Shown: piece after piece, positions 1 through 40,726 of the stretch | Position numbering within the stretch: position 1 is the first letter of the stretch | Layout of the letters: every line of letters begins with the position of its first letter | Assembly: GCA_945897335.1 (NCBI GenBank) | Contig: CAMDFP010000008.1 | Span: forward strand, 1-40,726 | Source: Asaia bogorensis | GTDB taxonomy: Bacteria > Pseudomonadota > Alphaproteobacteria > SHVZ01 | Direction of reading: 5' to 3' | Length of the DNA stretch: 40,726 nucleotides | Position numbers and translations under genes: made by a program | Notes under the pieces: generated by a model | The model's database searches: none | Seen by the model: the letters and a program-made list of their open reading frames with translations, nothing else | Told to the model about the DNA's origin: nothing

Positions 1-1219
1 CCGGGCTCTCGAGCAGGACCTCGCCGCCTCGCTCGCAGATGAGCGGCACATAGCGCGCGAACTGGATCGTGTCGCCCGCCCCCTGCTCCGCATGCAAGAG
101 CAGGCGGCGTCCGGCGAACGACGTGCCGTCCCACAAGGGCTGCGGGAAACTGCGCCTGACGCCGGCGAAAGCCCTCACCTGCCAGCGCTGCTCGTAGCCT
201 TCGAGCCCGCCGGCCATGTCACCCTTGAGCAGGAGCGCCATGCCGCGGTTGAACATCGCGTCCGGCCAACCCGGCACCTGCTTCAGGCAGGCGTCATAGG
301 CGGAGATCGCGTCATCGATCCGGCCCCATGACATGAGCGCCGCCGCCATATTGTTGCGGGCGTTGAAATGCTCCGGCGCCAGCGCGAGCGCGGACCGGTA
401 GCGCCGGCAGGCAGCGGCATGGGCCTCGACGCGGCTGTCCAGGTTCGCAAGGTTGTAGTGCGCATCGGCGAGATCCGGCGCGACGACGAGCGCGCGGCGA
501 TAGGAGGCAACCGCATCCTCCGGACGCTTCAGGTCACCCAGCACGTTCCCGCGCGTATTGAGCGCTTCGGGGAAGCCGGGCGAACGGCGTAGCACCTCGT
601 CCACTTCGGACAAGGCCGCCACCGGATCGCCGGAGAGTGCGAGCAGCATGGCGAGGTCGTGCCGGATAGGGGCGTCGTCGGGTCGCAATGCGAGGGCCGC
701 GCGCGCGGCAGCCGCCGCTTCGGCGAAGCGCTCGCCGAGCCTAAGCGCGGTCATCAGCCTGAGATGCGCATCGCCGATTGCCGCATCGAGCCTGATCACG
801 CGCCTGAACGCATCCGCGGCGCGTGCGTGATCGCTCGTGCGTTCTGCGGCAAGGCCGAGAAAATACGCGGGCTGCCAGAGTCCGGGCGAAAGGCGCGCGG
901 CTTCCGACAGCGGCTTCAGCGCTTCGGTCGGCCGGCCGAGATCGAGGAGGGCGTTGCCGAGATTCATCAGGACGTCCGTGCGCGGAACCAGGCGCGCCGA
1001 TGCCTGGACGAGCACGTCATGCGCTTCGGCGGGTCGCGCCTGCCGCAGCAGCGTCACGCCGAGAAGATGCTGGAGTTCGGGATCGTCGCCGAGGTGCGCG
1101 AGCGAACGACGGAGATCGGCCTCGGCTTCGGCAGGACGCCCCGCCTCCACCAGCTTGGCGGCCCTGGACCACGCGGCGGCGACCTGCTCAGGACTCGGAG
1201 CCACGCTTCTCCCGGTCAT
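1..1219 (-). CDS. TPR protein with GT9-like glycosyltransferase domain (3' end cut by window edge)
   Basis: About 406 codons are visible from ATG at 1219 and the reading frame is still open at base 1. Residues about 10-330 are back-to-back TPR helices, with recurring NLGNAL, AHYNLANL and LALAPEHFNARNN patterns. They are followed by the linker EGYEQRW typical of TPR-GT9 proteins. The first glycosyltransferase motif, EQGAGD, is at residues 378-383, followed by TIQFARYVPL. The missing part should hold the GLVWAGNP and DTAxAHLAGA motifs. The start overlaps the stop of the upstream gene as ATGA (1216-1219), so the two are probably translationally coupled in the same minus-strand operon. The family is generally annotated as a TPR-containing glycosyltransferase of the heptosyltransferase fold. 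Donor and acceptor are not known. Confidence 0.85.
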   Translation of the reverse strand, partial: MTGRSVAPSPEQVAAAWSRAAKLVEAGRPAEAEADLRRSLAHLGDDPELQHLLGVTLLRQARPAEAHDVLVQASARLVPRTDVLMNLGNALLDLGRPTEALKPLSEAARLSPGLWQPAYFLGLAAERTSDHARAADAFRRVIRLDAAIGDAHLRLMTALRLGERFAEAAAAARAALALRPDDAPIRHDLAMLLALSGDPVAALSEVDEVLRRSPGFPEALNTRGNVLGDLKRPEDAVASYRRALVVAPDLADAHYNLANLDSRVEAHAAACRRYRSALALAPEHFNARNNMAAALMSWGRIDDAISAYDACLKQVPGWPDAMFNRGMALLLKGDMAGGLEGYEQRWQVRAFAGVRRSFPQPLWDGTSFAGRRLLLHAEQGAGDTIQFARYVPLICERGGEVLLESP

Positions 1220-2802
1220 CCGATCCAAGCCTCAGCCATTGTGGTCACCCGCTCCGCGACGTCGCGCCAGTCGCCCGGCCGACGCTGTCTGATCAGCCGC
1301 GCGGTCGGATACCATGGGCTATCCGGGCGGTCCAACATCCAGCGCCAGTCGGCGCCGCGCTTCAGCAGGACCCACACCGGCCGGCCGAGCGCGCCGGCAA
1401 GATGGGCGACGGCCGTGCAGGTCGTGATCACCAGATCGAGATGGGTAAGGACGGCGGCAGTCGTCGCGAGGTCGTCCAGCCGCGGCCCGAGGTCGACGAT
1501 GCGGTCGCGGCCGGCGAAGTTCGTCAGCTGGTCGCGGCCATGGTCGCGCTGGAGACCGTAGAACGTCGCGCCCGGAAGAGCGACCAGGGGGGCCAGGGCG
1601 GCGATCGGTATCGAGCGATGCGGTTCATCGACCTGGCGGGGATTGCCTTGCCAGACGAGGCCGATACGCCGGCCGGATCCGGCGACGAGCGGCGCCGTCG
1701 ACGCCATCAACGCGGCATCGGCGACGAGATAGGGACCGTTGTCAGGTATGGTCTCGACCGTCGTCCGGAAGAGACGCGGCAGGCTCATCAGCGGCGCCTG
1801 GAAATCTGCATCGACCACCTCTCCGGGACTGATAAGTCGCGGTGCGCCGGAAAGGCTCCCGAGAAGCCGGACCAGGGGCGCCGGACATTCGATGACGACG
1901 GACGCACCAAGACCAGCCAGCAGCGGCACGTACCGCGCCATCTGCAGCACGTCGCCCAGTCCTTGCTCCGGGTAGAGCAGGATCCGGCGTCCGTTCAGTG
2001 ACTCGCCATTCCATTCCGGGCGCTCCGCCCGTCGCGCCTCGGCCTCCGGCCGGCGCCAGCGCCATTCGTAGAGCGCGAAGCCGCGCGGATAGTCGCCTTG
2101 GACCAGGTGCCAGGTGGCCAGGTTGTTGTTGAGAGCGACGTCGTTCGGATCGAGCGTCCGCGCCCGATGCAGCCAAGGCCCTGCGGCAACGACGTCGTCT
2201 TCCGCCATGGCGGCCACACCTGCACCGACGAGCGACGCCAGGATCTGGGGCGAGAGCGCGAGAGACCGCCGAAAGCACCGATACGCCGCCGCCGGACGAC
2301 CGGAGCGAAGCGCCGCGTTTCCGGCGACGGCCAAGGCTTCCGCGGCCCCGGAGGCGCGAAGAGCCAGCCGCTCGGCCTCGGCATAGGCTCCGTCTCTGAA
2401 CCGGAGATCGGCCAGGTTCGACAGCGCGGTCTCGGCGTCCGGGAACACGGCGATCGCCGAGCGAAAGGCACGCCGGGCCTCGCCCGGCCGGGACATCCGG
2501 TCCTGCAGCACGCCGTAGTCGTTCCAGGTCGGCCAGTCCGTCTCATGGGCGATCAACGCGCGCCGGAAAGCCCGCGCCGCGAGTTCGATCGCTCCGGCGG
2601 ACAAATAGGCCCGGCCGAGCACATGCAGAGGCTGAAAGAGCTCGGGCGCACGCGGTCGGAGGGCCGCCGCCGCGGCCAGCCAGAGGGCCGCCGGGTCGCC
2701 GTTGCCGGCGGCCAGCGACAGGCCCGCGTATTGAAGCGCGCCATGAGCGTCACCCGGCTCCGTGGCGAGATGCCTGCGCCAGGTGATGGCTGGCGCGGTC
2801 AC
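1216..2802 (-). CDS. TPR-containing GT9-like glycosyltransferase
   Basis: This is a 528-residue protein starting at GTG 2802, which overlaps the upstream stop as GTGA. TPR repeats fill residues about 20-245. The YEWRWRRPEAE linker leads into the C-terminal heptosyltransferase-like fold: EQGLGD at 279-284, APLMSLP at 336-342, GLVWQGNP at 381-388, DWRWML at 485-490 and PWYPT at 496-500. The motif that is normally VDTAVAHLAGALG reads TCTAVAHLAGALG (461-473), so the conserved Asp is Cys. In sibling genes this Asp is kept, so activity may be altered. The protein is probably cytoplasmic because it has no signal peptide or membrane segment. It is the middle gene of a three-gene operon running leftwards. 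The substrate is unknown. Confidence 0.88.
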   Translation of the reverse strand: MTAPAITWRRHLATEPGDAHGALQYAGLSLAAGNGDPAALWLAAAAALRPRAPELFQPLHVLGRAYLSAGAIELAARAFRRALIAHETDWPTWNDYGVLQDRMSRPGEARRAFRSAIAVFPDAETALSNLADLRFRDGAYAEAERLALRASGAAEALAVAGNAALRSGRPAAAYRCFRRSLALSPQILASLVGAGVAAMAEDDVVAAGPWLHRARTLDPNDVALNNNLATWHLVQGDYPRGFALYEWRWRRPEAEARRAERPEWNGESLNGRRILLYPEQGLGDVLQMARYVPLLAGLGASVVIECPAPLVRLLGSLSGAPRLISPGEVVDADFQAPLMSLPRLFRTTVETIPDNGPYLVADAALMASTAPLVAGSGRRIGLVWQGNPRQVDEPHRSIPIAALAPLVALPGATFYGLQRDHGRDQLTNFAGRDRIVDLGPRLDDLATTAAVLTHLDLVITTCTAVAHLAGALGRPVWVLLKRGADWRWMLDRPDSPWYPTARLIRQRRPGDWRDVAERVTTMAEAWIG

Positions 2803-4871
2803 GCCGAGGAGGCCGCAGCGGCGAGGTCGCGGGCGATGCGCGCGATCACCGGCGGCCAGCGGCGATCCTCGGCCTGCCGGTAGAGCCGCATCGTCGGATA
2901 CCAGGGCGTGTCCTCGCGCCCGAGAAGCCAGCGCCAGTCCGGAACATAGGTCGGCAGCATCCAGACCGGCTTGCCGAGAGCGCCGGCAAGATGCGCCACC
3001 GCGGTATCGACCGCGATCACCAGGTCGAGCTGGTCGATCAGTGCGGCGGTATCGGCAAAGTCGCGAACGAGCGGCGCCAGATCCTGGATGCGATCCTGAA
3101 GACCGAGGCGCCCGACATCCGCCGCGCGCGGACCGATCTGCAGGCTGTAGGCCGAAATGTGGCCCACATCGAGGAGCGGCGCGAACTCCGCCAGCGTCGC
3201 CGATCGCTTGTGGAACTTCTCGATCCTGGGATTGCCTGCCCAGACCAGACCGACCTTGAAGCGGGTCGGTGCTGGCGGCAGACGGGGTCCGTCCGCGGGC
3301 GGAGCGAGATACGGGATCGGGGCGTAGGCTCCCGCAGGCGTCGTGCCGAAGATCGGCGGAAGCTGCATCAGCGCCGCCTGAAGGTCGACCTGGCCCGGCG
3401 AGGCCCCGAGGTCGATCAGCTCAATGTCCGGCGACAAGGTCGAGAACAGGCGCCGTAGCTGCGGATAGCATTCGAGGACCACCCGGCCCCCGTTCTCGAC
3501 CACGGCCCGTGCATAGCGGGCGAAATGAATCATGTCGCCGAAGCCCTGCTCGCCGAGCAGGACGATCCGCCGGCCGGCGAGCGGCTCTCCCTGCCACCAT
3601 GGTGCGTGGATGGGGATCGGCGACTCGAGGTCGCGCCAGCGCCATTCATAGCGGAGGAAGCCCGTCGTCCAGTCTCCCGCCATCAGGCGCGTGATCGCAT
3701 CGTTCCAGCGAGGAGTCGAATAGCCGGGGTCGAGATCTGTCGCGCGGCCGTAGCGACGCAGCGCATCGCCGAGCTCCAGACGCTGTCGGCCCGCATTGCC
3801 GAGATTGTAGTGAGCGACCGCATCGCCGGGATTCAGAGTCACGGCCATCCGATAAAGCCGGCTCGCCTCCCCGACATCGCCATCCTGGAGCAGCACCGTC
3901 GCAAGATTGCTCAAGATCTTGGGATCTTCGGGCGCTTGCCGAAGTGCCTTGCCGAGTATTGCGGCGGCGGAACCGCGCTCATCCAGCTCGTCCAGCGCAT
4001 TGCCGAGATTGATCATCGCATCGAGGCGGCCGGGCGCGCAGGCCAGCGTCCGCCGTAACCGGCCGATCGCGAGTGGCCAGTCCTCGGCGGCTCGGCCCGC
4101 CTCGGCCAGCGCGAACCAGGAGGTGTCGTCCGAGGGGTTGAGTGCGAGTGCCTTAAGAAGAACCCTCGCCGAGATCGGGCTGGGCCGCAGCGCGGTCAGG
4201 GCGAGACCCAGCCCCTGCCAGCCATAGGCGTTGCGCGCATCGAGGGCGAGGGAGCGGGCATAGCTGATTGCAGCCCCTTCCGCTCGCCCGCCTCGTCGCC
4301 GCAAATCGGCGATCAGGAAATGGGCGCGAGGATGATCCGGTGCCGCCGCCGCCGCCCGTTTAAGCAGAACTTCGGCATCGGCACCCCGGCGCAGGAGCAA
4401 GGTCGCCAGATCGACCGAAGCATCCGCCGAGAGCGGATCGGCAGCTATGAGTTGGGCAAGCTCGGCTTCCGCCTCGCCGTGGCGGCGTTGCTGGGCCAAT
4501 GCCTGGGCGAGCGCACGGCGGCCCGCAGCGAAGCTCGGGCTGAGTCCGAGCGCGTCGCGAAACAGCGTCTCCGCGGCCGGAGGATCACCGAGGTCGAGGC
4601 TGAGATTGCCGAGCGCGAAGGCGATCTCGGGTGCATGCGGAACCATCGAGCGGGCGCGCCGGAGAAGGCGTTCCGCCACATCGAAACGGCCGGCGCCATG
4701 AGCCAGCACGCCAGAGACATAGAGCGTCTCCGGATAAGCCGGCACGAGAACGAGGGCCTGCTGCAGGCGAGTCCAGGCGGCGGCCGGACGGCCCTCGCGC
4801 ATCAGCGCCTGGGCATCGTCGAAGGCGCGCTCGGCCGCCTGAAGGGCGTGACCACCCTCTGTCATCGGCAT
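2799..4871 (-). CDS. TPR-containing GT9-like glycosyltransferase, long TPR array
   Basis: This is a 690-residue protein if ATG 4871 is used. An in-frame ATG at 4865 is nearly as good. The open frame continues upstream to 5042, but that extension is Arg-rich and would run into parA, so I reject it. Residues about 10-400 are TPR units (roughly ten or more), the longest array among the GT9-type genes here. The catalytic-like domain shows LRYEWRWRD at about 406, GEQGFGD at 440-446, GLVWAGNP at 541-548, an intact DTAVAHLAGALGKPVW at 622-637, PDWRWLL at 644-650 and PWYPT at 656-660. It heads the leftward operon and is divergent from parA across 143 bp. The family fold is clear; the sugar and the acceptor are not. 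Confidence 0.88.
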   Translation of the reverse strand: MPMTEGGHALQAAERAFDDAQALMREGRPAAAWTRLQQALVLVPAYPETLYVSGVLAHGAGRFDVAERLLRRARSMVPHAPEIAFALGNLSLDLGDPPAAETLFRDALGLSPSFAAGRRALAQALAQQRRHGEAEAELAQLIAADPLSADASVDLATLLLRRGADAEVLLKRAAAAAPDHPRAHFLIADLRRRGGRAEGAAISYARSLALDARNAYGWQGLGLALTALRPSPISARVLLKALALNPSDDTSWFALAEAGRAAEDWPLAIGRLRRTLACAPGRLDAMINLGNALDELDERGSAAAILGKALRQAPEDPKILSNLATVLLQDGDVGEASRLYRMAVTLNPGDAVAHYNLGNAGRQRLELGDALRRYGRATDLDPGYSTPRWNDAITRLMAGDWTTGFLRYEWRWRDLESPIPIHAPWWQGEPLAGRRIVLLGEQGFGDMIHFARYARAVVENGGRVVLECYPQLRRLFSTLSPDIELIDLGASPGQVDLQAALMQLPPIFGTTPAGAYAPIPYLAPPADGPRLPPAPTRFKVGLVWAGNPRIEKFHKRSATLAEFAPLLDVGHISAYSLQIGPRAADVGRLGLQDRIQDLAPLVRDFADTAALIDQLDLVIAVDTAVAHLAGALGKPVWMLPTYVPDWRWLLGREDTPWYPTMRLYRQAEDRRWPPVIARIARDLAAAASSA

Positions 4872-5014
4872 TGGCTCACGGGCGCGCGTTCTAGCGGCGC
4901 CGGCGGGTGAAGTCCATCGCTCGGGGGCATCGTTATTTAAGGATAAATGGAAAGCCGCATTGTTTTCACCCCCTGCTCCTGGTAGCTTCCGGTCGCGCAA
5001 TCCACGAGGTCTCG
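4872..5014. promoter_or_regulatory. Divergent intergenic region upstream of parA, candidate centromere/promoter
   Basis: This 143-bp gap separates the leftward TPR-GT operon from parA. It contains an AT-rich island at 4933-4948, unusual in this G+C-rich sequence, with the inverted repeat ATTTA (4935-4939) and TAAAT (4944-4948) around AGGA. In ParF/ParG-type partition systems the centromere and operator usually lie just upstream of the ATPase gene, so this is the expected place for parS. I see no convincing array of direct repeats, and I cannot assign -35/-10 boxes with confidence. Confidence 0.35.
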
Positions 5015-5668
5015 ATGGCGCTTCTCGTCGGCGTCGTTTCACAAAAGGGTGGGGTCGGCAAGAGCACAGTCGCGCGCATGGTTGCGCGCGAATATGCGCA
5101 GGCGGGATGGCGGGTGAAGATCGCCGACCTCGATATCGCCCAGGGAACGAGCTTCAACTGGCAGGCGCGCCGGCTGCAGAACAAGGTGACACCGGACGTG
5201 CCGGTCGAGCGCTTCGGCACCCTGGCACTCGCGCTCAAGATCGCTTCCCACTACGACCTCCTGGTTCTCGACGGGCCGCCGCATGCGACCGAGGGGACCC
5301 TGGCGATCGCCAACGCGGCCCAGCTCACAATATTGCCGACCGGACTCGCGCTCGACGATCTCGAACCGCAGGTGCTGCTGGCTCACGAGCTGACACGGCG
5401 CGGGGTCTCTCCGTCACGCCTTGCCTTCGTACTGGTCCGGGTCGGCGACAGCGACGTCGAACTGAACGACGCCCATGCCTATCTGACTCGCGCCGGCTAC
5501 TCGGTCCTGCCTGGATATCTTCCCGAGAAGGTCGGGTATCGGCGGGCCAGCGACGAAGGCCGGGCGGCAACCGAGACTCGCTTCCCCTCGCTCAACCAGC
5601 GCGCCGACGAGCTTGCCCAGGCGGTCGTCGACCGCCTGTCCACCATCACCCGAGAAGAGGCCGCCTGA
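5015..5668 (+). CDS. parA: ParA/ParF-type partition ATPase
   Basis: This 217-residue ATPase starts at ATG 5015, preceded by a GAGG-like site about six bases upstream. The open frame extends 36 codons further 5', but MALLVGVVSQ is the canonical ParA beginning. The deviant Walker A, KGGVGKST, is at residues 11-18, the A' region ADLDIAQGTS at 37-46, and Walker B ends in LLVLDGPP with Asp86. The protein lacks the N-terminal HTH of type Ia ParA. Its length fits the short type Ib (ParF, about 206 residues). It is followed immediately by a ribbon-helix-helix gene, the expected partner order. The likely role is ATP-driven plasmid segregation. An alternative is a ParA-like positioning protein for the glycosylation machinery encoded downstream. 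Confidence 0.9.
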   Translation: MALLVGVVSQKGGVGKSTVARMVAREYAQAGWRVKIADLDIAQGTSFNWQARRLQNKVTPDVPVERFGTLALALKIASHYDLLVLDGPPHATEGTLAIANAAQLTILPTGLALDDLEPQVLLAHELTRRGVSPSRLAFVLVRVGDSDVELNDAHAYLTRAGYSVLPGYLPEKVGYRRASDEGRAATETRFPSLNQRADELAQAVVDRLSTITREEAA

Positions 5669-5895
5669 TGGCCACCGTCCCTCCCCCCGTCCGCCGCGGC
5701 AAAGGCGAGCCGCCTCCCCAGGGGGCTGCGCTCGACAACCTCGTCCGCGGCGAGTCGGTGCGCCTGAAGCCGCTCAACTTCAAGGTCCCGGCCGACTTCC
5801 ATCGGGAGTTCAAGACGTTTGCCGCGATGAACGGCATGTCGATGCTGACCGTCCTGGTCGAGAGTTTTCGGCTCTACAGAGAGCACAAGGGCTAA
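5668..5895 (+). CDS. Small ribbon-helix-helix partner of ParA (ParG-like)
   Basis: This is a 75-residue protein whose ATG (5668-5670) overlaps the parA stop as TGATG. The N-terminal 35 residues are basic, Pro-rich and probably flexible. The C-terminal half (PLNFKVPADFHREFKTFAA, then MNGMSMLTVLVESFRLYREH) has the beta-strand plus two-helix pattern of ribbon-helix-helix DNA-binding proteins. Size, order and architecture match ParG of type Ib partition loci, where the RHH domain binds the centromere and represses the operon and the flexible tail stimulates the ATPase. That role is inferred here. It is missed if one calls only the longest reading frame, because a longer overlapping frame begins at 4960. 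Confidence 0.82.
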   Translation: MATVPPPVRRGKGEPPPQGAALDNLVRGESVRLKPLNFKVPADFHREFKTFAAMNGMSMLTVLVESFRLYREHKG

Positions 5896-5903
5896 CGGCC
5901 GTC

Positions 5904-6476
5904 ATGGCCGCCGCGGCCGCCGACTTTCCTCTGATGTCTCTGTACGCCGACGTCTTCACTGCCGAGGATTGCGCACGGATCATCGGGGCAGGCGAGAAGC
6001 TGGCACCGTCGATCGGCAAGGTGAACGATCCCAACGCGAAGGATGGCGTGCGGCCGGTGCGCGATGCCGCCGTCAGGGACCTTCCGCCCGACAATGAGTT
6101 CGGCTGGATCTATGAGCGCCTGCTCCACTATGCGGGCCGGCTCAACCAGCAGTCGCTGGGATTCGAGATCGAGCAGACGGAGACCCTGCAGCTCCTCTCT
6201 TACGGGCCGGGCCAGCACTACGACTGGCACGTCGACATCGGCACGCATGATCTCGCGCTCCGCAAGCTCAGCCTGGTCGCCCTTCTCAGCGACCCCGCAG
6301 ATTACGACGGCGGAGAGCTCGAGCTCTTCTTCAGCGACCAGCCGTCGATGATCGACCGACGGCGCGGCGGGCTCGTGGTCTTCCCCTCATTCGTGCTCCA
6401 TCGCGTCCGCTCGATCGGGCATGGCCGCCGCTACTCGCTTGCACTGTGGCTGAGGGGCGCGCAGCGGTTTCGCTGA
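5904..6476 (+). CDS. 2-oxoglutarate/Fe(II)-dependent oxygenase, prolyl-hydroxylase-like
   Basis: This is a 190-residue protein that begins 8 bp after the RHH gene. It shows the double-stranded beta-helix signature: iron ligands H109-V-D111 within GQHYDWHVDIG, a distal His166 in FPSFVLHRV, and Arg176 ten residues on, suited to bind 2-oxoglutarate. The segment YDGGELELFF (134-143) is typical of the PiuC/PKHD-type hydroxylase group. These enzymes hydroxylate proteins or small molecules using oxygen and 2-oxoglutarate. The position in one transcription unit with TPR glycosyltransferases suggests a protein substrate, perhaps making hydroxylated acceptor residues, but nothing in the sequence proves this. 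No signal peptide, so cytoplasmic. Confidence 0.85.
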   Translation: MAAAAADFPLMSLYADVFTAEDCARIIGAGEKLAPSIGKVNDPNAKDGVRPVRDAAVRDLPPDNEFGWIYERLLHYAGRLNQQSLGFEIEQTETLQLLSYGPGQHYDWHVDIGTHDLALRKLSLVALLSDPADYDGGELELFFSDQPSMIDRRRGGLVVFPSFVLHRVRSIGHGRRYSLALWLRGAQRFR

Positions 6477-6522
6477 CTGCGGACAGTCGACAAGAGGCTC
6501 GCCTCCGTTCTAGACCGGGCCG

Positions 6523-10415: not shown

Positions 10416-10466
10416 TTCACCGCCGTCGGGGTTATCCCTCACCATTGCGGATCAGCTTTTACATAA

Positions 10467-15775: not shown

Positions 15776-15783
15776 TCGATACG

Positions 15784-27384: not shown

Positions 27385-27459
27385 GATCACCAAGAACCTC
27401 GATTTCGACGCGGATCTAGATATCCAGTCGGCCTTGGTGTTTCAAGGTGCGAGGCTGGG

Positions 27460-31849: not shown

Positions 31850-31869
31850 CGATCACAGAAGCAGCGTGG
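31850..31869 (-). promoter_or_regulatory. Inverted iteron copy upstream of repA, candidate autoregulatory operator
   Basis: Read on the minus strand this is CCACGCTGCTTCTGTGATC, matching iteron 1 at all but one position over its first 18 bases. It is the only copy in the opposite orientation and the one nearest repA, about 155 bp before the start. In many iteron plasmids an inverted or half iteron pair overlaps the rep promoter and is bound by Rep dimers to repress it. Confidence 0.6.
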
Positions 31870-32023
31870 ACAAGCAAGTTTAGCGGGGACAGGCTCGTGT
31901 GCGCCGGACATCGGCCTTGGAGGGCTCCGGGGCCGCCGATAGTGTCGGTCCGTTCATCCGGCGCCCCGCCGCTTCATCGCTACACCGTCGCCCCTTCACC
32001 CTCCAGTCAGGACGATTTCGAGA

Positions 32024-33109: not shown

Positions 33110-34237
33110 ATGATGCGCATCGCTTTCCTCGATCGGCTGCCCTGGGACTACCGGGTGGACACGCCCTGGCACCGCCCGCTCGGCGGCTCGCAGTCGGCGC
33201 TCTGCTATCTGGCCTCGGCACTCGCGGCCCTCGGCCACGAGGTCCGCCTGGCGACGATGACCCGGAGCCCTGCCCGCATCGACGGCGTCGACTGCGTCAA
33301 TGCCGCAGACGGCGGCCTCGGATTGTTCGAGGGGGCCGAGGTCGCGGTCGTCCTCAACGATCCGGAGCCTGAGATCGCCCGCGGGCTCCGCGCCCGGATC
33401 GGCCCTAAGGGATTGCTCGTGCTCTGGACCCAGCACGACGTCGACCAGCCGGCCATGGCGAGCTACGCCGCGCCCGAGGCCCGGGCCCTCTTCGACCGCG
33501 TCGTCTTCGTCAGCGACTGGCAGCGCCGGGCCTATCGCCGGAGCTTCGGGCCCGGACCCGCCGACATCGTGCTCGGCAATGCGATCTCGCCCTCCGTCGG
33601 CGCGATCTTCGGCGAAGACGAGAGCCTCGCCGCCGCCAAGCCGGGCCCGCCGACGCTGATCTACACCTCGACGCCCTTCCGCGGCCTCGACGTGCTGCTC
33701 GATGCCTTCCCGCTGATCCGCTCCCGGCTGCCGGACGCGCGCCTCGTCGTGCATTCGAGTCTCGGCGTCTATCAGGTCGATGAATCCGAGGACGCCTATC
33801 GTCCGCTCTACGAGCGCTGCCGCGCACTTGCCGGCGTCGACTATCGGGGCGGGGTCGCCCAGCCCCTGCTCGCGGCCGCGCTCAAGGCGGCGCATTGCCT
33901 GGCATACCCCTCGACCTTCCCCGAGACCTTCTGCACCTCGGTGCTGGAGGCGATGGCGGCGGGCTGCCTTGCCGTGGTCGGCGATCTCGGCGCGCTGGCC
34001 GAGACCACGCGGGGCCTGGCCGAGCTGGTGCCCCTTCCATCCGATCCTGCCGATCCGGATCCCGCCGGCTATGCGCATCGCTTCGCCGAGCGCGTCGTCC
34101 GTGCGCTGGCCGATCCCGATCTGGCCCCGCGTCTCGAGCGCCAGCGACGCCTGCTTCGAGAGACCGCCACCTGGCCGGTGAGGGCGCGCTCCTGGAGCCT
34201 CTGGCTCGAGGCGGCGCTCGCCGGCCGCCGCCCGTGA
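33110..34237 (+). CDS. Group-1-type glycosyltransferase (GT4 family)
   Basis: This is a 375-residue GT-B protein from ATG 33110 (a second ATG follows at once). The N-terminal domain has the donor-loop PLGGSQSAL with Gly25-Gly26, and RVVFVSDWQRRAYR in mid-protein. The C-terminal domain opens with LIYTSTPFRGLDVLLDAFP and carries the E-x7-E motif of retaining GT4 enzymes (Glu272 and Glu280 in YPSTFPETFCTSVLEAMAAG). There is no signal peptide, so it is cytoplasmic or membrane-peripheral. It is the only glycosyltransferase here without TPRs. It is first in a five-gene operon and its stop overlaps the next start as GTGA. It may extend a glycan after the first sugar is attached by a GT41 enzyme; that is inference. 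Confidence 0.88.
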   Translation: MMRIAFLDRLPWDYRVDTPWHRPLGGSQSALCYLASALAALGHEVRLATMTRSPARIDGVDCVNAADGGLGLFEGAEVAVVLNDPEPEIARGLRARIGPKGLLVLWTQHDVDQPAMASYAAPEARALFDRVVFVSDWQRRAYRRSFGPGPADIVLGNAISPSVGAIFGEDESLAAAKPGPPTLIYTSTPFRGLDVLLDAFPLIRSRLPDARLVVHSSLGVYQVDESEDAYRPLYERCRALAGVDYRGGVAQPLLAAALKAAHCLAYPSTFPETFCTSVLEAMAAGCLAVVGDLGALAETTRGLAELVPLPSDPADPDPAGYAHRFAERVVRALADPDLAPRLERQRRLLRETATWPVRARSWSLWLEAALAGRRP

Positions 34238-34272
34238 CGATGATGCCCGTGACGATGATGCCGGTGACGATG
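34234..34272 (+). repeat. 15-bp tandem repeat of start codons at a translation start
   Basis: GTGACGATGATGCCC, then GTGACGATGATGCCG, then a partial third copy GTGACGATG begin exactly at the overlapping stop/start. Each unit holds one GTG and two ATG codons in the reading frame (residues V/M-T-M-M-P), so there are eight candidate in-frame starts within 39 bp. Confidence 0.9.
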
Positions 34273-35985
34273 GCATCGACGACGACGGAGATCGTCCTGC
34301 TCTGCCGGCGCGACCTGGCGCTGATGCCGGCACTGGCGCCGGCGCTGGCCGAGCTCGGACGGCTGACCGGGACCGCCGCCTGGCTGGTCCGGGCGCTCGG
34401 CATCGATCCGGCGCTCGTCTCCGCCCTGATCAATCTCGGCGCGTTCAGGTGCGGAGCGGGCGATGCCGGGGGTGCTGCCGTCCCGCTCGCGCGCGCGCTG
34501 GCGCTGGCTCCCGACGAGCCGTCGGCCTGGTTCAACCAGGGAGTCGCCCGCGGCCGTACGCCCGGGGCCGCCGTAGCCTATCGCCGCTCGCTGGCGCTGG
34601 CACCGTCCGCCGACGCCGCCACATATCTCGCCCATGTGCTGCGGGACGGCGATCCGCTGATCGCCGCGATCCCCGTCTACCGCCAGGCGCTGGCGCTGGC
34701 GCCGTCGGATCCCCTCCTCTTCGAGTGCCTCGCCTTCTGCCGGAGCTACGATCCGCAAGCGACGAGCCCGGAGATCTTCAGCCTCAAGCGGCGCTGGGCC
34801 GCCCTGGTGGCGCGCCCGCCCTTGCCGGCGCCGGCCCTGCCGCGCGATCCGGCCGAACCGGATCCCGATCGGCGGCTCCGCGTCGCCTATCTCTCGGCCG
34901 ACCTCTACGACCATCCGGTCGGACGCAACCTGGTCGGCCTGCTCGAGCATCACGACCGGAACGCGGTCGAGGTCTGCCTCTACGATCTCCGCGAAGGCAA
35001 TGATGCGATCGCGCGCCGCCTGAGGGCCGCTGCCTCCCTCCGGCGCGCCGCAGCCGGGCTCGACGACCGGGCTCTGGCCGAGACCATCCGCTCGGACCGC
35101 ATCGACCTCCTGGTCCTGCTCGCCGGCCACACGCCGTTCAACCGGCTGGCTCTTGCGGACTTCCGATCGGCGCCGGTGCAGGTGGCGATGCACGACTTCA
35201 CCACCAGCGGACTTCTCTCGATCGATGCCGTCCTCGGCGATCGGACGCTGATGCCGGAGGGAGGCGAGGAGGGCTTCGTCGAGACGGTGATCCGGCTTCC
35301 CACCTTCTATCTGCACGAGCCGCTGCCCGACGTACCGATCCCGTCGCGTCCCGCGCTCGGGCCCGGCGAGCCGCTGGTGCTCGTCTCCGCCAACAACCCG
35401 GCCAAGCTCAACGACCGCGTCATCGACCTCTGGGGACGCATCCTGCTCGGCCTGCCGCGCGCCCGCCTTCTCCTCAAATATCGCGACCGCTTCGGCGATC
35501 CCCTGGTCCGGCGGCGCTGGCTCGCCCGGCTCGCTCTCTCAAGCGTCGGCGCCGACCGTCTTCTCTTTCATACCGGCGACGATGACCTGGCCTCTCACCT
35601 CGCCGTCGTCGGCGGCGCCGACCTGGCGCTCGATCCCTTTCCCTTCAACGGCTGCACCACCAGCTACGAGGCGCTCTGGATGGGCGTGCCCGTGGTGACG
35701 CTGGTGGGCAAACGCTTCGTCGGGCGGGCAGGGGCGGCGATGGTGCAGCCGCTCGGGCTCTCCGACCTCGCCGTCGCCGACGAGGACGCCTATGTCGCCG
35801 CCGCCCTCGGCCTCGCCGCCGATCCCGCGCGCCGCGCCCGCCTCAGGGCCGAGCTCAGGCCTCGTCTCAGATCCTCGGCGCTGCTGGATGCGGGCGCTCA
35901 CGCGACCTCGGTCGAGGCCGCCTATCGCCGGCTCTGGCGGGACTGGTGCGGGCGGAAAACGAAAGAACGAAATCCCGTTCGATGA
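34234..35985 (+). CDS. TPR + SPINDLY-type O-linked GlcNAc transferase-like protein (GT41), short TPR region
   Basis: This is a 583-residue protein from GTG 34234, which overlaps the GT4 stop as GTGA. The frame extends to 33895 only as a shadow. The first 15 codons are a tandem repeat carrying several in-frame start codons. TPR-like repeats cover about 30-175, shorter than in the other GT41 copies. The catalytic region has RVAYLSADL, His227 (YDHPVGRN), LLAGHTPFNR, MHDFTTSGL, Lys391 (ANNPAKLN) and Asp467 (ALDPFPFNG), then TSYEALWMGVPV. It is very like 8514-10415, with long matching stretches around the His and the HDxTTSG motif. All nucleotide-sugar residues are retained. It is coupled to the next GT41 gene by ATGA. 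Confidence 0.92.
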   Translation: MTMMPVTMMPVTMASTTTEIVLLCRRDLALMPALAPALAELGRLTGTAAWLVRALGIDPALVSALINLGAFRCGAGDAGGAAVPLARALALAPDEPSAWFNQGVARGRTPGAAVAYRRSLALAPSADAATYLAHVLRDGDPLIAAIPVYRQALALAPSDPLLFECLAFCRSYDPQATSPEIFSLKRRWAALVARPPLPAPALPRDPAEPDPDRRLRVAYLSADLYDHPVGRNLVGLLEHHDRNAVEVCLYDLREGNDAIARRLRAAASLRRAAAGLDDRALAETIRSDRIDLLVLLAGHTPFNRLALADFRSAPVQVAMHDFTTSGLLSIDAVLGDRTLMPEGGEEGFVETVIRLPTFYLHEPLPDVPIPSRPALGPGEPLVLVSANNPAKLNDRVIDLWGRILLGLPRARLLLKYRDRFGDPLVRRRWLARLALSSVGADRLLFHTGDDDLASHLAVVGGADLALDPFPFNGCTTSYEALWMGVPVVTLVGKRFVGRAGAAMVQPLGLSDLAVADEDAYVAAALGLAADPARRARLRAELRPRLRSSALLDAGAHATSVEAAYRRLWRDWCGRKTKERNPVR

Positions 35986-38069
35986 CCCAGCCGGACCTCC
36001 TCGCCCACGCCCAGGCTCATCTGGCGGCCGGCCGCCTCGCCGAGGCGGAAGCGGCGTTCCGGCGGATCCTCGAGGTCCCTCCCGACTTAGGGCCGCTCCG
36101 CGGACAGGCGCTCTGGGGCCTCGGCCTCGTCGCCGCCCGCGCCGGCCGTCCCGACCTCGCCTTGGGCCTGCTCGAGGAAGCGGTGCGGATCCTTCCGCGA
36201 GAAGCCGAGATCCATCTCCATCTCGGCCAGGCCCGTCTCGAGGCCGGCGCCTCGGATCCCTCGCGCCCGGATCTTGTTCGCCCGGATCTTGCCCGTCTGG
36301 CTCTTGCCCGGGCGCTGGCGCTGGTGCCGGGCGAGCCGGCCATCCTCGAAGCCCTCGGACGTGCCACTGCCGCCCGCACCGCCATCGCCCGCCTCTGGCA
36401 GGAACGCGCGCTGGCGCTGGCGCCGGAGTTTCTCGCCGCCCGTCTCAATCTCGCCGTCCTTCTCGCCGGCGAGGGCGCTCCCGATCGCGCGCGGCGCGAG
36501 ATCGCATGTGCGCTGGCACTCGCCCCCGAGGCAGCCTCCGCCTGGTTCAATCTCGGCGTCGTCCTCGGGCACACCGAAGAGGCCTGCACCGCCTTCGAAC
36601 GCACGCTGGCCCTCGATCCGGGCGCGCTCGATGCCGCCGTCAACCGCTCGCGCCTGCTTCTGTCCACGCGGCCGAGCCGGGCCGAGCCGGCGCTCCGGCG
36701 CGTCGCGGCGCTTTTCCCTTCGACCCCGATGGCGCTCACCCAGCTCGCGCATCTCGCCCGGGTGTCGGCCCTCGGCGAGCCCGCCGCCCGCCTCTTCGCC
36801 CGCGCGCATGCCGCCGATGCCGCGAACCCGGCGCTCCACAGCAACTGGCTGCAGCAGCTCGCCTACGATCCGGATCTGAAGCCCGAGACCGGTCTCGCCC
36901 GTCATCGCGACTGGGCCCGCCGTCATGCCGCAAAACCACGGCTCGCCGATCCAGATCCCGTTGATCTTGATCCGGCGCGGCGGCTTCGCATCGGCTATGT
37001 CTCGGCCGATCTCGCCCGCCATCCGGTCGGCATCTTCCTCCTGCCGGCGCTCCGCCATCGCGACCCGCGCTCGCAGGAGATCGTCTGCTATTCCGGCACG
37101 CGCCCGCCCGATGCCTGGACCGACCGCCTCCGAGCATCCGCCGATCGCTGGGTCGAGGCGGCCGACCTCGACGACGACGCGCTGGAAGACCGCATCCGCA
37201 CCGACCGCATCGACATCCTGGTCGACCTCTCCGGCCACACCGCCGGCAACCGGCTTCCGGTCTTCGCCCGCCGGCCGGCGCCGCTGCAGGCCGCCTGGAT
37301 CGGCTATCCGGGCTCGACCGGCCTCGAGGAGATCGACGTCGTGATCGCCGATCTGGTGCAAGCGCCGCCCGCGCATGAGCGCTGGTTCGTCGAGCGCATC
37401 GAGCGGCTGGATCCAGGCTACCTCGCCTATGAACCGCCGGACGATGCGCCGGATGTCGCCCCGCTGCCGGCGCTGGCGAGAGGGCACGTCACCTTCGGCA
37501 GCCTCAACAACCCGGCCAAGCTCAATCCGAAGATCCTTCGCCTGTGGGCCGGCGTGCTTGCCGCCGTGCCGGGCGCGCGCCTGCTCCTCGCCTGGCCCGG
37601 CTTCGCCGACCCCAGGGTCGAAGAGCGGCTCCGCGCGCTCGCCGCCGGCTCCGGCATCGCCCCCGATCGCCTCGAGCTCCGCCCCGGCGGCGCGCCCGCC
37701 GCGTTCCTCGCCCGCTACGGCGAGATCGACGTCGCGCTCGATCCCCGGCCCTATTCCGGCGGCCTCACCACGCTGGAGGCGCTGTGGATGGGCGTGCCCG
37801 TCGTCACCTGCCCCGACGAGCGCTTCGCCGGCCGTCACGCCGCGAGCCATCTGACGCAGGCCGGGCTCGCCGACTGGATCGTGCCGGACGAGGCCGCCTA
37901 TGTCGCCCGCGCCGCCGCCGCCGCCGCCGATCTCGATCGTTTGAGCCGGCTTCGCCAGGGCCTGCGCGCGCAGCTCTCGGCCTCCTCGCTTCTGGACGGC
38001 GCCGGCTTCGCCCGCCGGCTCGATGCTCTCTGGCGCCGGATCTGGCGCCGGCGCTCTGCGGGCCTTTGA
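35982..38069 (+). CDS. TPR + SPINDLY-type O-linked GlcNAc transferase-like protein (GT41)
   Basis: This is a 695-residue protein from ATG 35982, coupled to the previous gene by ATGA (the frame to 35946 is a shadow). TPR repeats cover about 1-310, with clear units AAARLNLAVLLAGEGAPDRAR-like and AWFNLGVVLGHTEEACTAF. The catalytic region contains RIGYVSADL, His347 (ARHPVGI), LSGHTAGNR, WIGYPGSTGL, Lys513 (LNNPAKLN) and Asp587 in ALDPRPYSG, then LTTLEALWMGVPV. The WIGYPGSTG motif is close to that of eukaryotic OGT (WLGYPGTSG), so this is the nearest to canonical OGT in the window. Only two bases separate its stop (TGA 38067-38069) from the next start, as TGAGATG. Confidence 0.91.
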   Translation: MTQPDLLAHAQAHLAAGRLAEAEAAFRRILEVPPDLGPLRGQALWGLGLVAARAGRPDLALGLLEEAVRILPREAEIHLHLGQARLEAGASDPSRPDLVRPDLARLALARALALVPGEPAILEALGRATAARTAIARLWQERALALAPEFLAARLNLAVLLAGEGAPDRARREIACALALAPEAASAWFNLGVVLGHTEEACTAFERTLALDPGALDAAVNRSRLLLSTRPSRAEPALRRVAALFPSTPMALTQLAHLARVSALGEPAARLFARAHAADAANPALHSNWLQQLAYDPDLKPETGLARHRDWARRHAAKPRLADPDPVDLDPARRLRIGYVSADLARHPVGIFLLPALRHRDPRSQEIVCYSGTRPPDAWTDRLRASADRWVEAADLDDDALEDRIRTDRIDILVDLSGHTAGNRLPVFARRPAPLQAAWIGYPGSTGLEEIDVVIADLVQAPPAHERWFVERIERLDPGYLAYEPPDDAPDVAPLPALARGHVTFGSLNNPAKLNPKILRLWAGVLAAVPGARLLLAWPGFADPRVEERLRALAAGSGIAPDRLELRPGGAPAAFLARYGEIDVALDPRPYSGGLTTLEALWMGVPVVTCPDERFAGRHAASHLTQAGLADWIVPDEAAYVARAAAAAADLDRLSRLRQGLRAQLSASSLLDGAGFARRLDALWRRIWRRRSAGL

Positions 38070-38070: not shown

Positions 38071-39447
38071 ATGAGCGCCGATCTCCGCCGCCGTCTCATT
38101 CGGGATCCGCAAGCGGCGGAGGCCTGGCGGTCCCTCGCTTTCGCCTTCGCTGCCGGCAACGAGATCGCGGCCGCGGCCGCGATCTTCTCTCGTCTCGCGG
38201 CTCTTCGTCCCGAAGCGCTCGATCTCTCCAACCTGGCCGAGCTCCGCCGCGCCGCCGGCCTTGGCGCCGCCGCGCGCTCGGCCCGCCGCGCCCTCGCCCT
38301 CGATCCGGCGCTGGCCGCCGCCCACAACAATCGCGGCAACATCGTCCTTAAGGAAGATCGTCCCGCCGAAGGCGAGGCCGCCTTCCGCCGGGCGCTGGCA
38401 CTCCAGCCGGGGTTTCGCGACGCCGCCTACAACCTCGCCGCCGCCCGCAACGACCAGGGCGATCCGCCGGCCGCCATCGCGGTCTACGAACGCGTGCTCG
38501 CAACGGCGCCGGATTTCTTCCAGGCGCAGTGGAACCGGGCGCTGGCGCTTCTCGCCGCCGGCCGCTGGCAGGAGGGCTGGCAGGCGCACGAGATCCGGCG
38601 CGCCCATCCGCTGCTGAAGCCCCGCGACTTCGAGATCCCCGACTGGACCGGCGAGCCGCTCGCCGGGCGCCGCATCCTCGTGGCATCCGAGCAGGGCCAT
38701 GGCGACAGCATCCAGTTCCTGCGCTTCGTGCCGGAGCTCGCGCGCCTGGGCGGCCGCGTCGTCCTCGACCTGCCGGCGCCGCTGCTGCGTCTCGCCCAGG
38801 TGCTCCCCGGCGTCGAGCGGCTGATCGAAAGCGGGACGCCGCCGGGCGAAGTCGATCTCACCGTCCCGCTGATGAGCCTGCCGCTGAGACTTGGGCTCGG
38901 CGAGAGGGCGGCAGCTCCCGTGGCCCCTTATCTCCTCCCGCCTCCTCTGGTCCCGCCGGCGATCATCCGCGACGGCCGGCCGCTGGTGGGGCTGGTCTGG
39001 GCCGGAAACCCGGGGAACAAATCCGATGCCCGGCGCTCGCTCACCCTCGAGCGTCTCGGCCCGGTGCTGGCGCCGGCGGGGCTGCGCTTCGTCTCGCTGC
39101 AGTTCGGGCCCCGCGCCGCCGACATTGCCTCGTCCGGTCTCGAGGGGCGGATCGAGACGCTGGACGATCTCGGCGACTTCGCCACCACCGCCGCCATCGC
39201 CGCGTCTCTCGATCTCGTCGTCACCGTCGACACCGCGATGGCGCATCTCGCCGGCGCCAGCGGCAACGAGGCCTGGGTGCTGCTGGCCCATGCGCCGGAC
39301 TGGCGCTGGGGGATGAGGGGCGAGACCACGTCCTGGTATCCCTCGCTCCGTCTCTTCCGCCAACCCGGCCCCGGCGACTGGAACGGAGTCGTGCACGCCC
39401 TCGTCCGGGCGCTGGCCGAGCGCTTCCCCGGGGCCGCCCGGAGATGA
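38071..39447 (+). CDS. TPR-containing GT9-like glycosyltransferase
   Basis: This is a 458-residue protein from ATG 38071; the frame to 38023 is a shadow of the preceding gene. TPR-like repeats fill about 5-175 (HNNRGNIVLKEDRPAEG, YNLAAARNDQGDPPAA, WNRALALLAAGRW). The linker is degenerate (WQAHEIRRAHP) compared with the usual YEWRW. The transferase fold has SEQGHGDSIQFLRFVP (206-221; His replaces the usual Leu or Phe), VPLMSLP, GLVWAGNP (307-314), VDTAMAHLAGASGNEAW (386-402), PDWRWG and SWYPSLRLFRQ. It is complete. It is coupled by ATGA to the next gene, with which it shares long matching segments, so the two look like tandem duplicates. Confidence 0.9.
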   Translation: MSADLRRRLIRDPQAAEAWRSLAFAFAAGNEIAAAAAIFSRLAALRPEALDLSNLAELRRAAGLGAAARSARRALALDPALAAAHNNRGNIVLKEDRPAEGEAAFRRALALQPGFRDAAYNLAAARNDQGDPPAAIAVYERVLATAPDFFQAQWNRALALLAAGRWQEGWQAHEIRRAHPLLKPRDFEIPDWTGEPLAGRRILVASEQGHGDSIQFLRFVPELARLGGRVVLDLPAPLLRLAQVLPGVERLIESGTPPGEVDLTVPLMSLPLRLGLGERAAAPVAPYLLPPPLVPPAIIRDGRPLVGLVWAGNPGNKSDARRSLTLERLGPVLAPAGLRFVSLQFGPRAADIASSGLEGRIETLDDLGDFATTAAIAASLDLVVTVDTAMAHLAGASGNEAWVLLAHAPDWRWGMRGETTSWYPSLRLFRQPGPGDWNGVVHALVRALAERFPGAARR

Positions 39448-40726
39448 CCCAGCCCGATCGTCTTCACGAAACCCAGCGCCTTCACGAAGAGGGCCAGCGC
39501 CTTCACGAAGAGGGATTGAGCCTTCTCGAGGCGGGCCGGCTCGACGAGGCGCTCGACCGCATCGGCCGCGCCCTCGATCTCGCCTCGATGCGTCCTTTGC
39601 AGCAGACGGCGCTTGTCGTGCTGAAGACGGCCCAGCTGCACAACAGCTTCGGAGCGGTGCTGATCGAGCTCGGTCACGCCGAGGCGGCGGCCGCGTCGTT
39701 CCGGATCGCGCTGGTGCTGGCGCCGGGATTCGCTCCGGCCTGGACCAACCTCGGCAGCGCCGCCGTCTCGGCGTCTGCCCATGGCCGCGCCATCGCGCTC
39801 GCTCCGTTCGCCGCCGATGCCCATGCCAATCTCGGCGCGCTCGAGCAGCGACGGGGACGGAGCGAGGCCGCCCTTCGCCGCTATGCAGCGGCGGTGGCGC
39901 TGGATCCGGCCGATCCCCGCGTCTGGTCCAATCTCGGTTCGGCCCGCTATTGGGCCGGGCGGCTCGACCTGGCAGGACGGGCCTTCGAGCGCGCGCTCGC
40001 CCTCGCTCCCGGTTTCGCCGACGGCCGGTTTCACCGCGGCCTGCTCCGGCTGCTCCTCGGCGACTACGCCGGCGGCTTCGCCGACTACGAAGAACGCCGC
40101 AAGCGCCGCAGCGGCATCGTCCGCCTCCGCCGCGCGATCCCGGGCTGGGCCGGCGAGGATCCGGCGGGGAAGCGCCTGCTCGTCTGGGGCGAGCAGGGCC
40201 TCGGCGACACGATCCACTTCGCCCGCTTCGTCCCTTTGCTCACCGCGCGCGGTGCCGAGGTCACGCTGGCCGCGCCGCGCCGGCTGGTCTCGCTCCTGAG
40301 GACGCTCGGCGACGTCGAGCGGGTCCAGTCGTTCGAGGAGCCGCTGCCGGCGGTCGATCTGCAGGCCCCGCTGATGAGCCTGCCGCATCTGCTCGGCCTC
40401 GGCGCCGCCGCCGCCGCTCCGCTCGCGCCCTATCTGGCTTCGCCGCCGGCGTCGGCCGCATTCGTCACCGACGGCCGGCCGCTGGTCGGTCTCGCCTGGG
40501 CCGGTAGCCCGACCAACGAGTCGGATGCCTGGCGCTCGCTCGCCCTCGAGCGTCTCTCTCCGCTGCTGGCGCTGAAGGGTCTCCGCTTCGTCTCGCTGCA
40601 GTTCGGCGTCAGCGCCGCCGACGTGGCGGCGGCCGGCCTCGAGGGTCGCCTCGAGACGCGGGAGGATCTCGGCGACTTCGCCGACACCGCGGCTGTCGTC
40701 GCCGGCCTCGATCTCGTCGTCACCGT
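39444..40726 (+). CDS. TPR-containing GT9-like glycosyltransferase (3' end cut by window edge)
   Basis: About 427 codons are visible from ATG 39444, which overlaps the previous stop as ATGA. The frame is open to the window end. Unlike its neighbours it starts with a short heptad-like stretch, DRLHETQ, RLHEEGQ, RLHEEGL, made by a 21-bp tandem duplication. TPR units follow (about 25-215), e.g. WTNLGSAAVSASAHGRAIALA and VWSNLGSARYWAGRLDLA. The transferase domain has GEQGLGDTIHFARFVPLL (from 249), APLMSLPHLLGLG, GLAWAGSP and FVSLQFG. The DTAxAHLAGA and DWRWG motifs lie beyond the edge. It looks like a paralogue of 38071-39447. Confidence 0.88.
   Translation, partial: MTQPDRLHETQRLHEEGQRLHEEGLSLLEAGRLDEALDRIGRALDLASMRPLQQTALVVLKTAQLHNSFGAVLIELGHAEAAAASFRIALVLAPGFAPAWTNLGSAAVSASAHGRAIALAPFAADAHANLGALEQRRGRSEAALRRYAAAVALDPADPRVWSNLGSARYWAGRLDLAGRAFERALALAPGFADGRFHRGLLRLLLGDYAGGFADYEERRKRRSGIVRLRRAIPGWAGEDPAGKRLLVWGEQGLGDTIHFARFVPLLTARGAEVTLAAPRRLVSLLRTLGDVERVQSFEEPLPAVDLQAPLMSLPHLLGLGAAAAAPLAPYLASPPASAAFVTDGRPLVGLAWAGSPTNESDAWRSLALERLSPLLALKGLRFVSLQFGVSAADVAAAGLEGRLETREDLGDFADTAAVVAGLDLVVT
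39473..39514 (+). repeat. 21-bp exact tandem duplication in a TPR-GT9 N-terminus
   Basis: The units 39473-39493 and 39494-39514 are identical and encode QRLHEEG twice. A degenerate earlier unit (DRLHETQ) lies just before. The seven-residue period with Leu and charged residues suggests an amphipathic helix or a short coiled coil. Confidence 0.85.

Follow-up and report, generated by a model that had tools for sequence, protein, structure and literature searches.

The 40,726-base contig CAMDFP010000008.1 of the Asaia bogorensis draft assembly GCA_945897335.1 (G000 below; contig G000:C8), analyzed in full and referred to here as the window, encodes sixteen glycosyltransferases with tetratricopeptide repeats (TPRs). 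The array is real, accurately described in an earlier note, and on a plasmid-type replicon; most likely it is an island for protein glycosylation in a lineage whose TPR glycosyltransferases are extreme in number. Eight of the enzymes carry a catalytic domain of glycosyltransferase family 41 (GT41) and eight carry one that resembles family 9 (GT9-like), the same numbers that the earlier note had given. The window is a complete contig amounting to 0.81% of an assembly of 5,018,712 bases in 442 contigs (95.8% complete). All of its open reading frames (ORFs) were listed, and the likely genes (37 translations) were scanned with Pfam. Comparisons covered seven genomes, namely G000, five of the same genus (G001 to G005), and one of the same family and another genus (G006); completeness is 97% for G001, 95% for G006, and 77% for G003.

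The Pfam model Glyco_transf_41 (PF13844) matches eight window ORFs at 88-187 bits, against a cut-off of 25. The genes are located at 8541-10415 (+; 125.1 bits on ORF 7617-10415, with H273, K433, and D509), 13880-15775 (+; 151 bits), 15784-17850 (-; 131.1 bits on ORF 15784-18033), 17963-19903 (+; 187.2 bits), 21097-23085 (+; 126.9 bits), 23082-25025 (+; 127.6 bits), 34243-35985 (+; 88.2 bits on ORF 33895-35985), and 35982-38069 (+; 150.6 bits on ORF 35946-38069). Three residues, His, Lys, and Asp, have catalytic or nucleotide-site roles known from human OGT. All eight window enzymes retain them at the near-constant spacing previously claimed (160-166 residues from His to Lys and 73-76 from Lys to Asp), and among the 44 complete GT41 domains of the assembly the His is kept in 41, the Lys in 42, and the Asp in 44. 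The solved chains matched by the best-scoring enzyme (17963-19903) are led by Thermobaculum OGT (5djs, E 2.4e-88) and SPINDLY (E 4.4e-83), and its K469 aligns with position 341 of the former, a K341M mutant structure. Further solved relatives include human and other animal OGTs, XcOGT, and, distantly, the N-glucosyltransferase group (NGT/HMW1C). The window enzymes thus share with OGT and SPINDLY the pairing of TPRs with a GT41 domain that keeps His, Lys, and Asp; they differ from OGT in that the middle of the Pfam model (~230-365) is unmatched, so that they have no metazoan-type insert. Elsewhere in G000, a GT41 encoded in a flagellin cluster (L020 3427-5346 on G000:C124) carries Asn at the position of the conserved His, as do its orthologs on G002:C195, G004:C59, and G005:C42, a natural active-site change that is fixed across four species.

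The second catalytic type was followed with a hidden Markov model (HMM) built from the window's six complete C-terminal domains (~300 residues), which therefore match it by construction. Eight window genes are found with this model at 77.7-473.5 bits, two of them cut by contig ends: 2-1219 (-; TPRs and the start of the domain, cut, 77.7 bits over model positions 1-86), 1216-2802 (-; 528 residues), 2799-4865 (-), 6523-8517 (+; 664 residues, 392 bits), 24985-26229 (-; 386 bits, without a Pfam match of its own), 27460-29187 (-; 575 residues, 447 bits), 38071-39447 (+; 450 bits), and 39516-40724 (+; cut, 226 bits over model positions 1-242). Two of the eight pass the 22-bit cut-off of the Pfam GT9 model PF01075, the proteins at 1216-2802 (22.5 bits) and 2799-4865 (25.5 bits on ORF 2799-5042), and the other six do not appear among its matches at E 0.001 or 0.01; the name GT9-like therefore derives mainly from the predicted fold of one protein. 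The catalytic domain of 2799-4865, when folded alone (predicted local distance difference test, pLDDT, 86; predicted template-modeling score, pTM, 0.88), has WaaF, WaaC, a Veillonella GT9, and TibC as its top PDB matches, at a TM-score of ~0.5. A model of the 27460-29187 protein reached a pLDDT of 87. A search for solved sequence relatives of the GT9-like profile returned no chains at E up to 1, and a full-length fold search was uninformative, its result being swamped by TPR matches. TibC is a cytoplasmic protein heptosyltransferase that serves an autotransporter. The window enzymes resemble it in the predicted fold of the catalytic domain and differ in having a TPR N-terminus and an identity of only ~10-13% over the structural alignment. 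Given the GT41 kin on the one hand and TibC among the fold matches on the other, both catalytic types would have protein-modifying relatives.

Across the whole assembly, PF13844 gives 91 matches; most genes are hit as two half-domains, and the matches correspond by our own gene calls to 47 GT41 genes on 28 contigs (8 in the window and 39 on the other 27); the raw ORF count is 48, including one 81-residue fragment at a contig end. Twenty contigs have one GT41 gene and eight have two or more. GT9-like domains number 11, with 8 in the window and 3 elsewhere, for a total of 58 GT41 and GT9-like genes in the assembly. Random placement would put 0.38 of the 47 and 0.09 of the 11 in the window (P ~4e-9 and ~3e-15, respectively). 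Because 39 of 47 GT41 genes and only 3 of 11 GT9-like genes lie outside the window, GT41 richness is a property of the genome and GT9-like richness a property of the replicon. The earlier idea that such density is a plasmid feature accordingly stands for the GT9-like genes and is not supported for the GT41 genes. The refutation that the earlier note had named, equal numbers of these genes dispersed elsewhere, applies to the GT41 genes, on 27 other contigs that may or may not be chromosomal, and does not apply to the GT9-like genes. In the five same-genus genomes and the same-family genome, PF13844 yields from at least 26 to at least 32 matches each, counts that are lower bounds, with 19 candidates scored per genome. 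In a survey of the class (members at least 90% complete), 142 of 387 have any GT41 match, and an unscored first-look count is highest in G000 (94), followed by G122 (55), G001 (44), and G057 (40). The other 245 of the 387 members gave no GT41 match. The number of such enzymes in G000 is exceptional. No bacterial GT41 expansion of this kind is described in the titles and abstract beginnings of the papers that the searches listed, a body of text that leaves out most subscription papers, and the available parts of PMC7716537 and PMC3245306 contain nothing on TPR glycosyltransferases.

The placement of the array next to a replicon, also asserted in the earlier note, is borne out. A RepA_C replication initiator (32024-33031, +; PF04796, 119.7 bits) lies downstream of at least seven iteron-like direct repeats (31294-31692; 24 nt, 67-100% identity, with an inverted copy at 31852-31875), as is characteristic of RepA_C iteron plasmids. 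It is the one RepA_C match of the assembly, and in the six relatives the protein has a match in one, on G002:C58 (76% identical). A ParA-type partition ATPase is encoded at 4907-5668 (+; PF01656, 40.4 bits over cut-off), followed on its 3' side by a 45-residue ORF (5758-5895, +; no Pfam match) that, by eye, is a possible ribbon-helix-helix centromere-binding partner. A 97-residue protein (26307-26600, -) is 100, 95, and 96% identical in G004, G005, and G003, where neighboring transferases are 55-78% identical. Its homologs occur on 16 Azospirillum plasmids and 1 Niveispirillum plasmid, in 6 of 190 class genomes including its own, and on G002:C58 (81% identical), and it is possibly a backbone marker of this kind of plasmid. 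Also backbone-like is a 620-residue protein with a C-terminal helix-turn-helix (HTH) domain (29320-31182, -; PF13560/PF01381), which is 93% identical in G004, 79% in G005, and 58% in G002. Parts of it resemble Bacillaceae plasmid proteins. It was considered as a second replication protein, a role that it may or may not have; a tblastn search of plasmids gave 13 records, mostly from Bacillaceae, with none covering 80%. At 68.5%, the G+C content of the window is inside the 63-70% range of other contigs. The array had been said to continue past both edges; both end genes are indeed cut, and the window is the whole contig, with nothing readable beyond it.

The first 31 kb of the window are collinear with G005:C36, where a counterpart of 24985-26229 is absent, and the right half of this block is collinear with G004:C38; G003:C101 has part of it. 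G004:C38 and G005:C36 both start near the HTH gene, at window position 31 kb, and the iterons may be the cause of this shared contig start. Identity to the sister species is 91-93% for ParA (in G003 and G005), 79-93% for the HTH protein, 95-100% for the 97-residue protein, and 76-88% for the nonulosonate synthase NeuB described below, with the transferases at 49-78%. The ratio of nonsynonymous to synonymous divergence (dN/dS) is 0.18-0.42 for the transferases compared and 0.06-0.19 for ParA, the HTH protein, and NeuB; the 31-kb block, transferases included, is under purifying selection. In 9 of 11 GT41 ortholog pairs, conservation is lower in the TPR part than in the catalytic part. Synonymous divergence of the block genes is 0.24-1.6 to G004 and 0.6-1.4 to G005, compared with ~0.26-0.31 and 0.41-0.55, respectively, for convincing ORFs of a chromosomal yardstick, which is one region around a kdsB-like gene. 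As the block mostly exceeds this single region, recent transfer between these species is disfavored. The window ORFs scanned with Pfam and NCBIfam, which come from an incomplete replicon, gave no match to relaxase, type IV secretion, or transposase families. With this result, and with a collinear block that is under purifying selection and mostly more diverged than the single chromosomal region, the label "mobile" that the array had been given is not supported. A DNA-level search of window positions 1-20000 in plasmids gave nothing but one 141-base match.

Between two GT41 genes, in a position that is the same in G004 and G005, lies a gene, missed in the earlier note, for a NeuB-family nonulosonate synthase with a SAF domain (19915-20961, -). 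It scores 309.9 bits with PF03102 and 424.6 with TIGR03569 (cut-off 399.65), and is below cut-off with the pseudaminate model TIGR03586. Apart from the window NeuB, PF03102 has no match in G000, and the family was found in four of the seven genomes. On the contig with the related RepA and 97-residue proteins, G002:C58, NeuB is joined by four GT41, one GT9-like, Maf, a carbamoyltransferase, and a cytidine triphosphate (CTP)-transferase/aminotransferase fusion. The fusion gene (L121 15782-17671), beside neuB and near maf, links a CTP-transferase of the cytidine monophosphate (CMP)-sugar synthetase type to a class-III aminotransferase. The grouping of NeuB, CMP-sugar synthetase, and Maf with GT41s and a related RepA on this contig is a likeness to Maf systems. 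Three genes for the flagellin nonulosonate transferase Maf (Maf_flag10_N, PF20157) occur in G002, each on a contig with 3-4 GT41.

Flagellins are another association. The Flagellin_N model (PF00669) has 38 matches in six of the seven genomes, hook-associated proteins included, and at least 12 of them are on GT41 contigs: two on G000:C124, one on G000:C296, two on G002:C195, four on G004:C59, and three on G005:C42. GT41 arrays directly adjoin flagellins on G000:C124, G002:C195, G004:C59, and G005:C42; on G000:C124, ~80 bases separate a GT41 gene from a flagellin gene. Two long flagellins cut by contig ends, L127 1-1992 (G000:C179, at least 664 residues) and L131 12435-14048 (G000:C110, at least 538 residues), are on contigs without GT41. 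On a larger scale, G006:C54 (75 kb) has 14 GT41 among FliF, FliG, FliI-type, FlgD, FlgE, sigma-54 activator, and sugar-nucleotide genes. The order epimerase-epimerase-DegT-transketolase beside GT41 recurs on that contig and on G000:C72, a contig of lower G+C (63%) in which 6.3 kb (L036 2896-9235) are without gene calls.

The reading favored here, and held to be fairly probable, is that the window is a replicon-borne island for cytoplasmic protein O-glycosylation that works like the FlmG and Maf systems and has flagellins or other exported proteins for its acceptors. It looks like an enlarged form of the apparatus with which bacteria decorate flagella and further exported proteins. The secondary replicon (RepA, iterons, and ParA) would carry the island as cargo. 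The TPR superhelix of each enzyme would bind its own acceptor or acceptor segment, and the catalytic domain would add a single sugar to it in the cytoplasm, ahead of export, with a soluble nucleotide-sugar as donor. For at least one of the enzymes, the sugar is probably a nonulosonic acid (sialic or legionaminic-like) made by the NeuB of the array. The acceptors would most likely be exported surface proteins, flagellins first, and perhaps others kept export-competent by a SecB-like chaperone. The analysis shows the enzyme families with their conserved catalytic residues and predicted folds, NeuB, the replicon genes, the synteny, and the purifying selection; we infer that the acceptors are proteins, and likewise which proteins these are and which sugars are used. 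By analogy, Caulobacter FlmG would be the best model of how the window enzymes work. According to the available part of PMC7591256, FlmG combines TPRs with a GT-B domain, binds flagellin through its TPR part, and requires NeuB, in an organism described there as being without Maf; the same part states that the programming of specificity in cytoplasmic O-glycosylation is poorly understood. The window shares with FlmG a TPR N-terminus and GT-B C-terminus, a presumed cytoplasmic location, a NeuB-type synthase in the same genome, and several flagellins. The scale is different, since FlmG is one enzyme for all Caulobacter flagellins, and here 16 enzymes stand in an array and 58 in the assembly. By length, and not by sequence, the FlmG glycosyltransferase domain (309-596) is nearer to the GT9-like domain (~305 residues) than to GT41 (~390 residues), and FlmG is for that reason not claimed as a GT41 enzyme.

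The earlier proposal of a cytoplasmic protein-glycosylation system is thus supported by enzyme families that have such members and by NeuB within the array, and lacks an acceptor in the window. Several further observations weigh against the island reading as a whole. Pfam and composition scans of the window revealed no flagellin, adhesin, or long Ser/Thr-rich ORF, and a Ser/Thr-rich repeat acceptor near the arrays was dropped as a candidate. In G000, only three of eight flagellin matches are on GT41 contigs. PF03102 has no match in G001, G003, or G006, of which G001 and G006 are still GT41-rich, so that GT41s in general cannot depend on NeuB. Maf has no PF20157 match in six of the seven genomes, and the window's own G000, one of the six, differs in this from Maf systems. 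Beyond NeuB, the CMP-nonulosonate pathway of G000 is represented by candidate CTP-transferases only. Rates as high as those of the transferases are also seen in some other genes of the 31-kb block, with dN/dS of 0.21 for the SecB-like gene, 0.34 for an oxygenase gene, 0.37 for 10622-11179, and 0.40 for 11774-12790. Finally, the neighbors of the dispersed G000 GT41s are mixed: 170 Pfam families occur among 119 proteins (of 156 listed), none in more than three members, and those that lead, with up to three each, are aminotransferases, epimerases, dehydrogenases, SIS proteins, transporters, and flagellins.

The island reading also has a narrower form, in which flagellin is the sole acceptor and the array is a flagellin-glycosylation island that has become detached; it has clearly less than an even chance. 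It draws on the adjacency of flagellin and GT41 on four contigs in four genomes and on the Maf and NeuB of the related G002 replicon. It is countered by the window itself, in which no flagellin matched, and by G003, which has GT41s and no PF00669 match at 77% completeness. Other acceptors can also be considered. Long, Ser/Thr-rich, arginine-poor ORFs on the examined contigs number 13, none of them in the window; they comprise flagellins, flagellar hook-type proteins, a metalloprotease-like protein on G000:C7, a few unassigned ORFs, and one ORF of a Niveispirillum plasmid. The metalloprotease-like protein (L124 16192-19542) is an exported-looking, Ser/Thr-rich protein of the M12B type with 1117 residues, encoded ~6 kb from a GT9-like domain outside the window, and is a possible acceptor.

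The closest known replicons appear, from sequence comparison, to be the p6-type plasmids of Azospirillum, which are related but distant. Azospirillum accounts for 36 of the 99 plasmid records matching a GT41 query by tblastn and for 47 of the 106 matching a GT9-like query, and among plasmid-borne proteins the closest RepA and GT41s belong to Roseomonas relatives and Azospirillum. Like the window, AZO_p6 has TPR-GT41 and TPR-GT9-like genes on one plasmid, with one GT41 and three GT9-like among eight TPR proteins by HMM. These HMM counts are preferred to the tblastn places (three on AZO_p6 and six on pAB510f for GT41, and six on AZO_p6 for GT9-like), which may include TPR-only matches. AZO_p6 NeuB is 57% identical to that of the window, and its ParA has no match to the window ParA at 1e-5. 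On pAB510f, which would correspond to p6, both of the two TPR proteins tested are GT41 by HMM, RepA is 34% and the 97-residue homolog 47% identical, pseB is present, and a GT41 gene stands beside type I secretion genes. The two plasmids differ from the window in size (262 and 296 kb, respectively), in carrying flippase, polysaccharide, or type I secretion genes, in the wider spread of their TPR glycosyltransferases, and in belonging to another family of the class. The available part of PMC3899980 describes p6 as a typical plasmid, lowest in G+C, that A. lipoferum 4B and B510 can apparently do without.

The company kept by these Azospirillum genes, in which TPR glycosyltransferases are mixed with flippase, polysaccharide, and O-antigen genes, lends something to an unlikely alternative, namely that the product of the transferases is a surface polysaccharide or lipopolysaccharide (LPS), with the TPRs serving as the scaffold on which several enzymes form an assembly line. 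The predicted LPS heptosyltransferase fold of the GT9-like domain would also fit, as would a plain GT4-type glycosyltransferase without TPRs that is encoded beside RepA (33113-34237, +; PF13692/PF00534 on ORF 33110-34237). Of similar bearing is the flagellin glycan of Azospirillum brasilense, which is built like its O-antigen repeat, according to the part of PMC3958885 available. On the other side, no flippase, polymerase, ABC exporter, or priming transferase is among the Pfam-scanned window ORFs (of an incomplete replicon), the solved GT41 relatives are named protein O- or N-glycosyltransferases, and flagellins and Maf accompany the arrays in the same genus. As for other plasmids, pRhico has reportedly been the subject of older work on surface composition.

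It is improbable that the enzymes act instead as SPINDLY- or OGT-like regulators, glycosylating many cytoplasmic proteins for signaling and not for surface decoration. The nearest solved kin of the best-scoring GT41, Thermobaculum OGT and plant SPINDLY, would suit such a role, as would the dispersal of most GT41s among genes of mixed function; the associations with NeuB, Maf, and flagellin point to exported proteins.

The ancestry of the copies was traced in a tree of GT41 catalytic domains with 139 leaves, a partial tree that takes in part of one G001 contig and part of the GT41 contigs of G002 to G005, and leaves out characterized reference enzymes. The smallest clade that holds all eight window copies takes in 123 of the leaves, and six of the eight group first with orthologs of G004 and G005 (or G005 and G003), in matching contig order; of the other two, 34243-35985 branches as sister to the group of 8541-10415, and 35982-38069 stands without a close partner. 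An origin of the array by recent tandem duplication was thereby ruled out, the window GT41s being scattered over the family tree. Plain inflation of a gene family, with little functional division and arrays as duplication by-products, would agree with GT41 numbers that are inflated in all six relatives, and is nevertheless a poor prospect for copies that are not recent duplicates and are under purifying selection.

Returning to the island reading, the remaining cargo includes two genes of possible relevance. A SecB-like export chaperone (13399-13851, +; PF02556, 95.6 bits) is encoded directly 5' of a GT41 gene and is retained in G004 and G005, which suggests a Sec-exported acceptor. A 2-oxoglutarate (2OG)-Fe(II) oxygenase, or hydroxylase (5904-6476, +; PF13640, 58 bits over cut-off; 60-68% identical in G003 and G005), sits between ParA and a GT9-like gene; speculatively, it might hydroxylate acceptor residues ahead of glycosylation. 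Other genes comprise a Sel1-repeat protein (26674-27318, -; PF08238, 100.9 bits on ORF 26674-27393), a 185-residue protein with a signal-peptide-like N-terminus by eye (10622-11179, +; no Pfam or NCBIfam match; 45-47% identical in G003 and G005), and a conserved 150-residue protein with hydrophobic stretches, also by eye (12787-13239, -; 77% identical in G004, 50% in G005, and 42% in G002). The segment 10416-13398 has a G+C content of 62%, versus 67% on either side, and its genes are poorly conserved (44-50% to G005). Eleven of the 37 scanned translations are without a family, and some are probably non-coding, such as 20041-21084 (+), which is antisense to neuB.

A more ambitious proposal, put forward tentatively and with considerable doubt, is that the G000 lineage possesses a combinatorial, genome-wide code of cytoplasmic protein glycosylation. 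Some 47 GT41 and 11 GT9-like enzymes would each have a TPR reader of their own for an acceptor or site, one conserved secondary replicon would hold most of the GT9-like enzymes and the only nonulosonate synthase, and a hydroxylase would possibly make attachment sites. In this lineage the diverged TPR-GT41s run to dozens and have orthologs in several species, two unrelated catalytic families share the same TPR chassis, and flagellins nearby are candidate acceptors. With such a natural set of TPR glycosyltransferases, it would become possible to pair reader and catalytic domains with their acceptors and sugars, and the set would be a source of parts for protein glyco-engineering.

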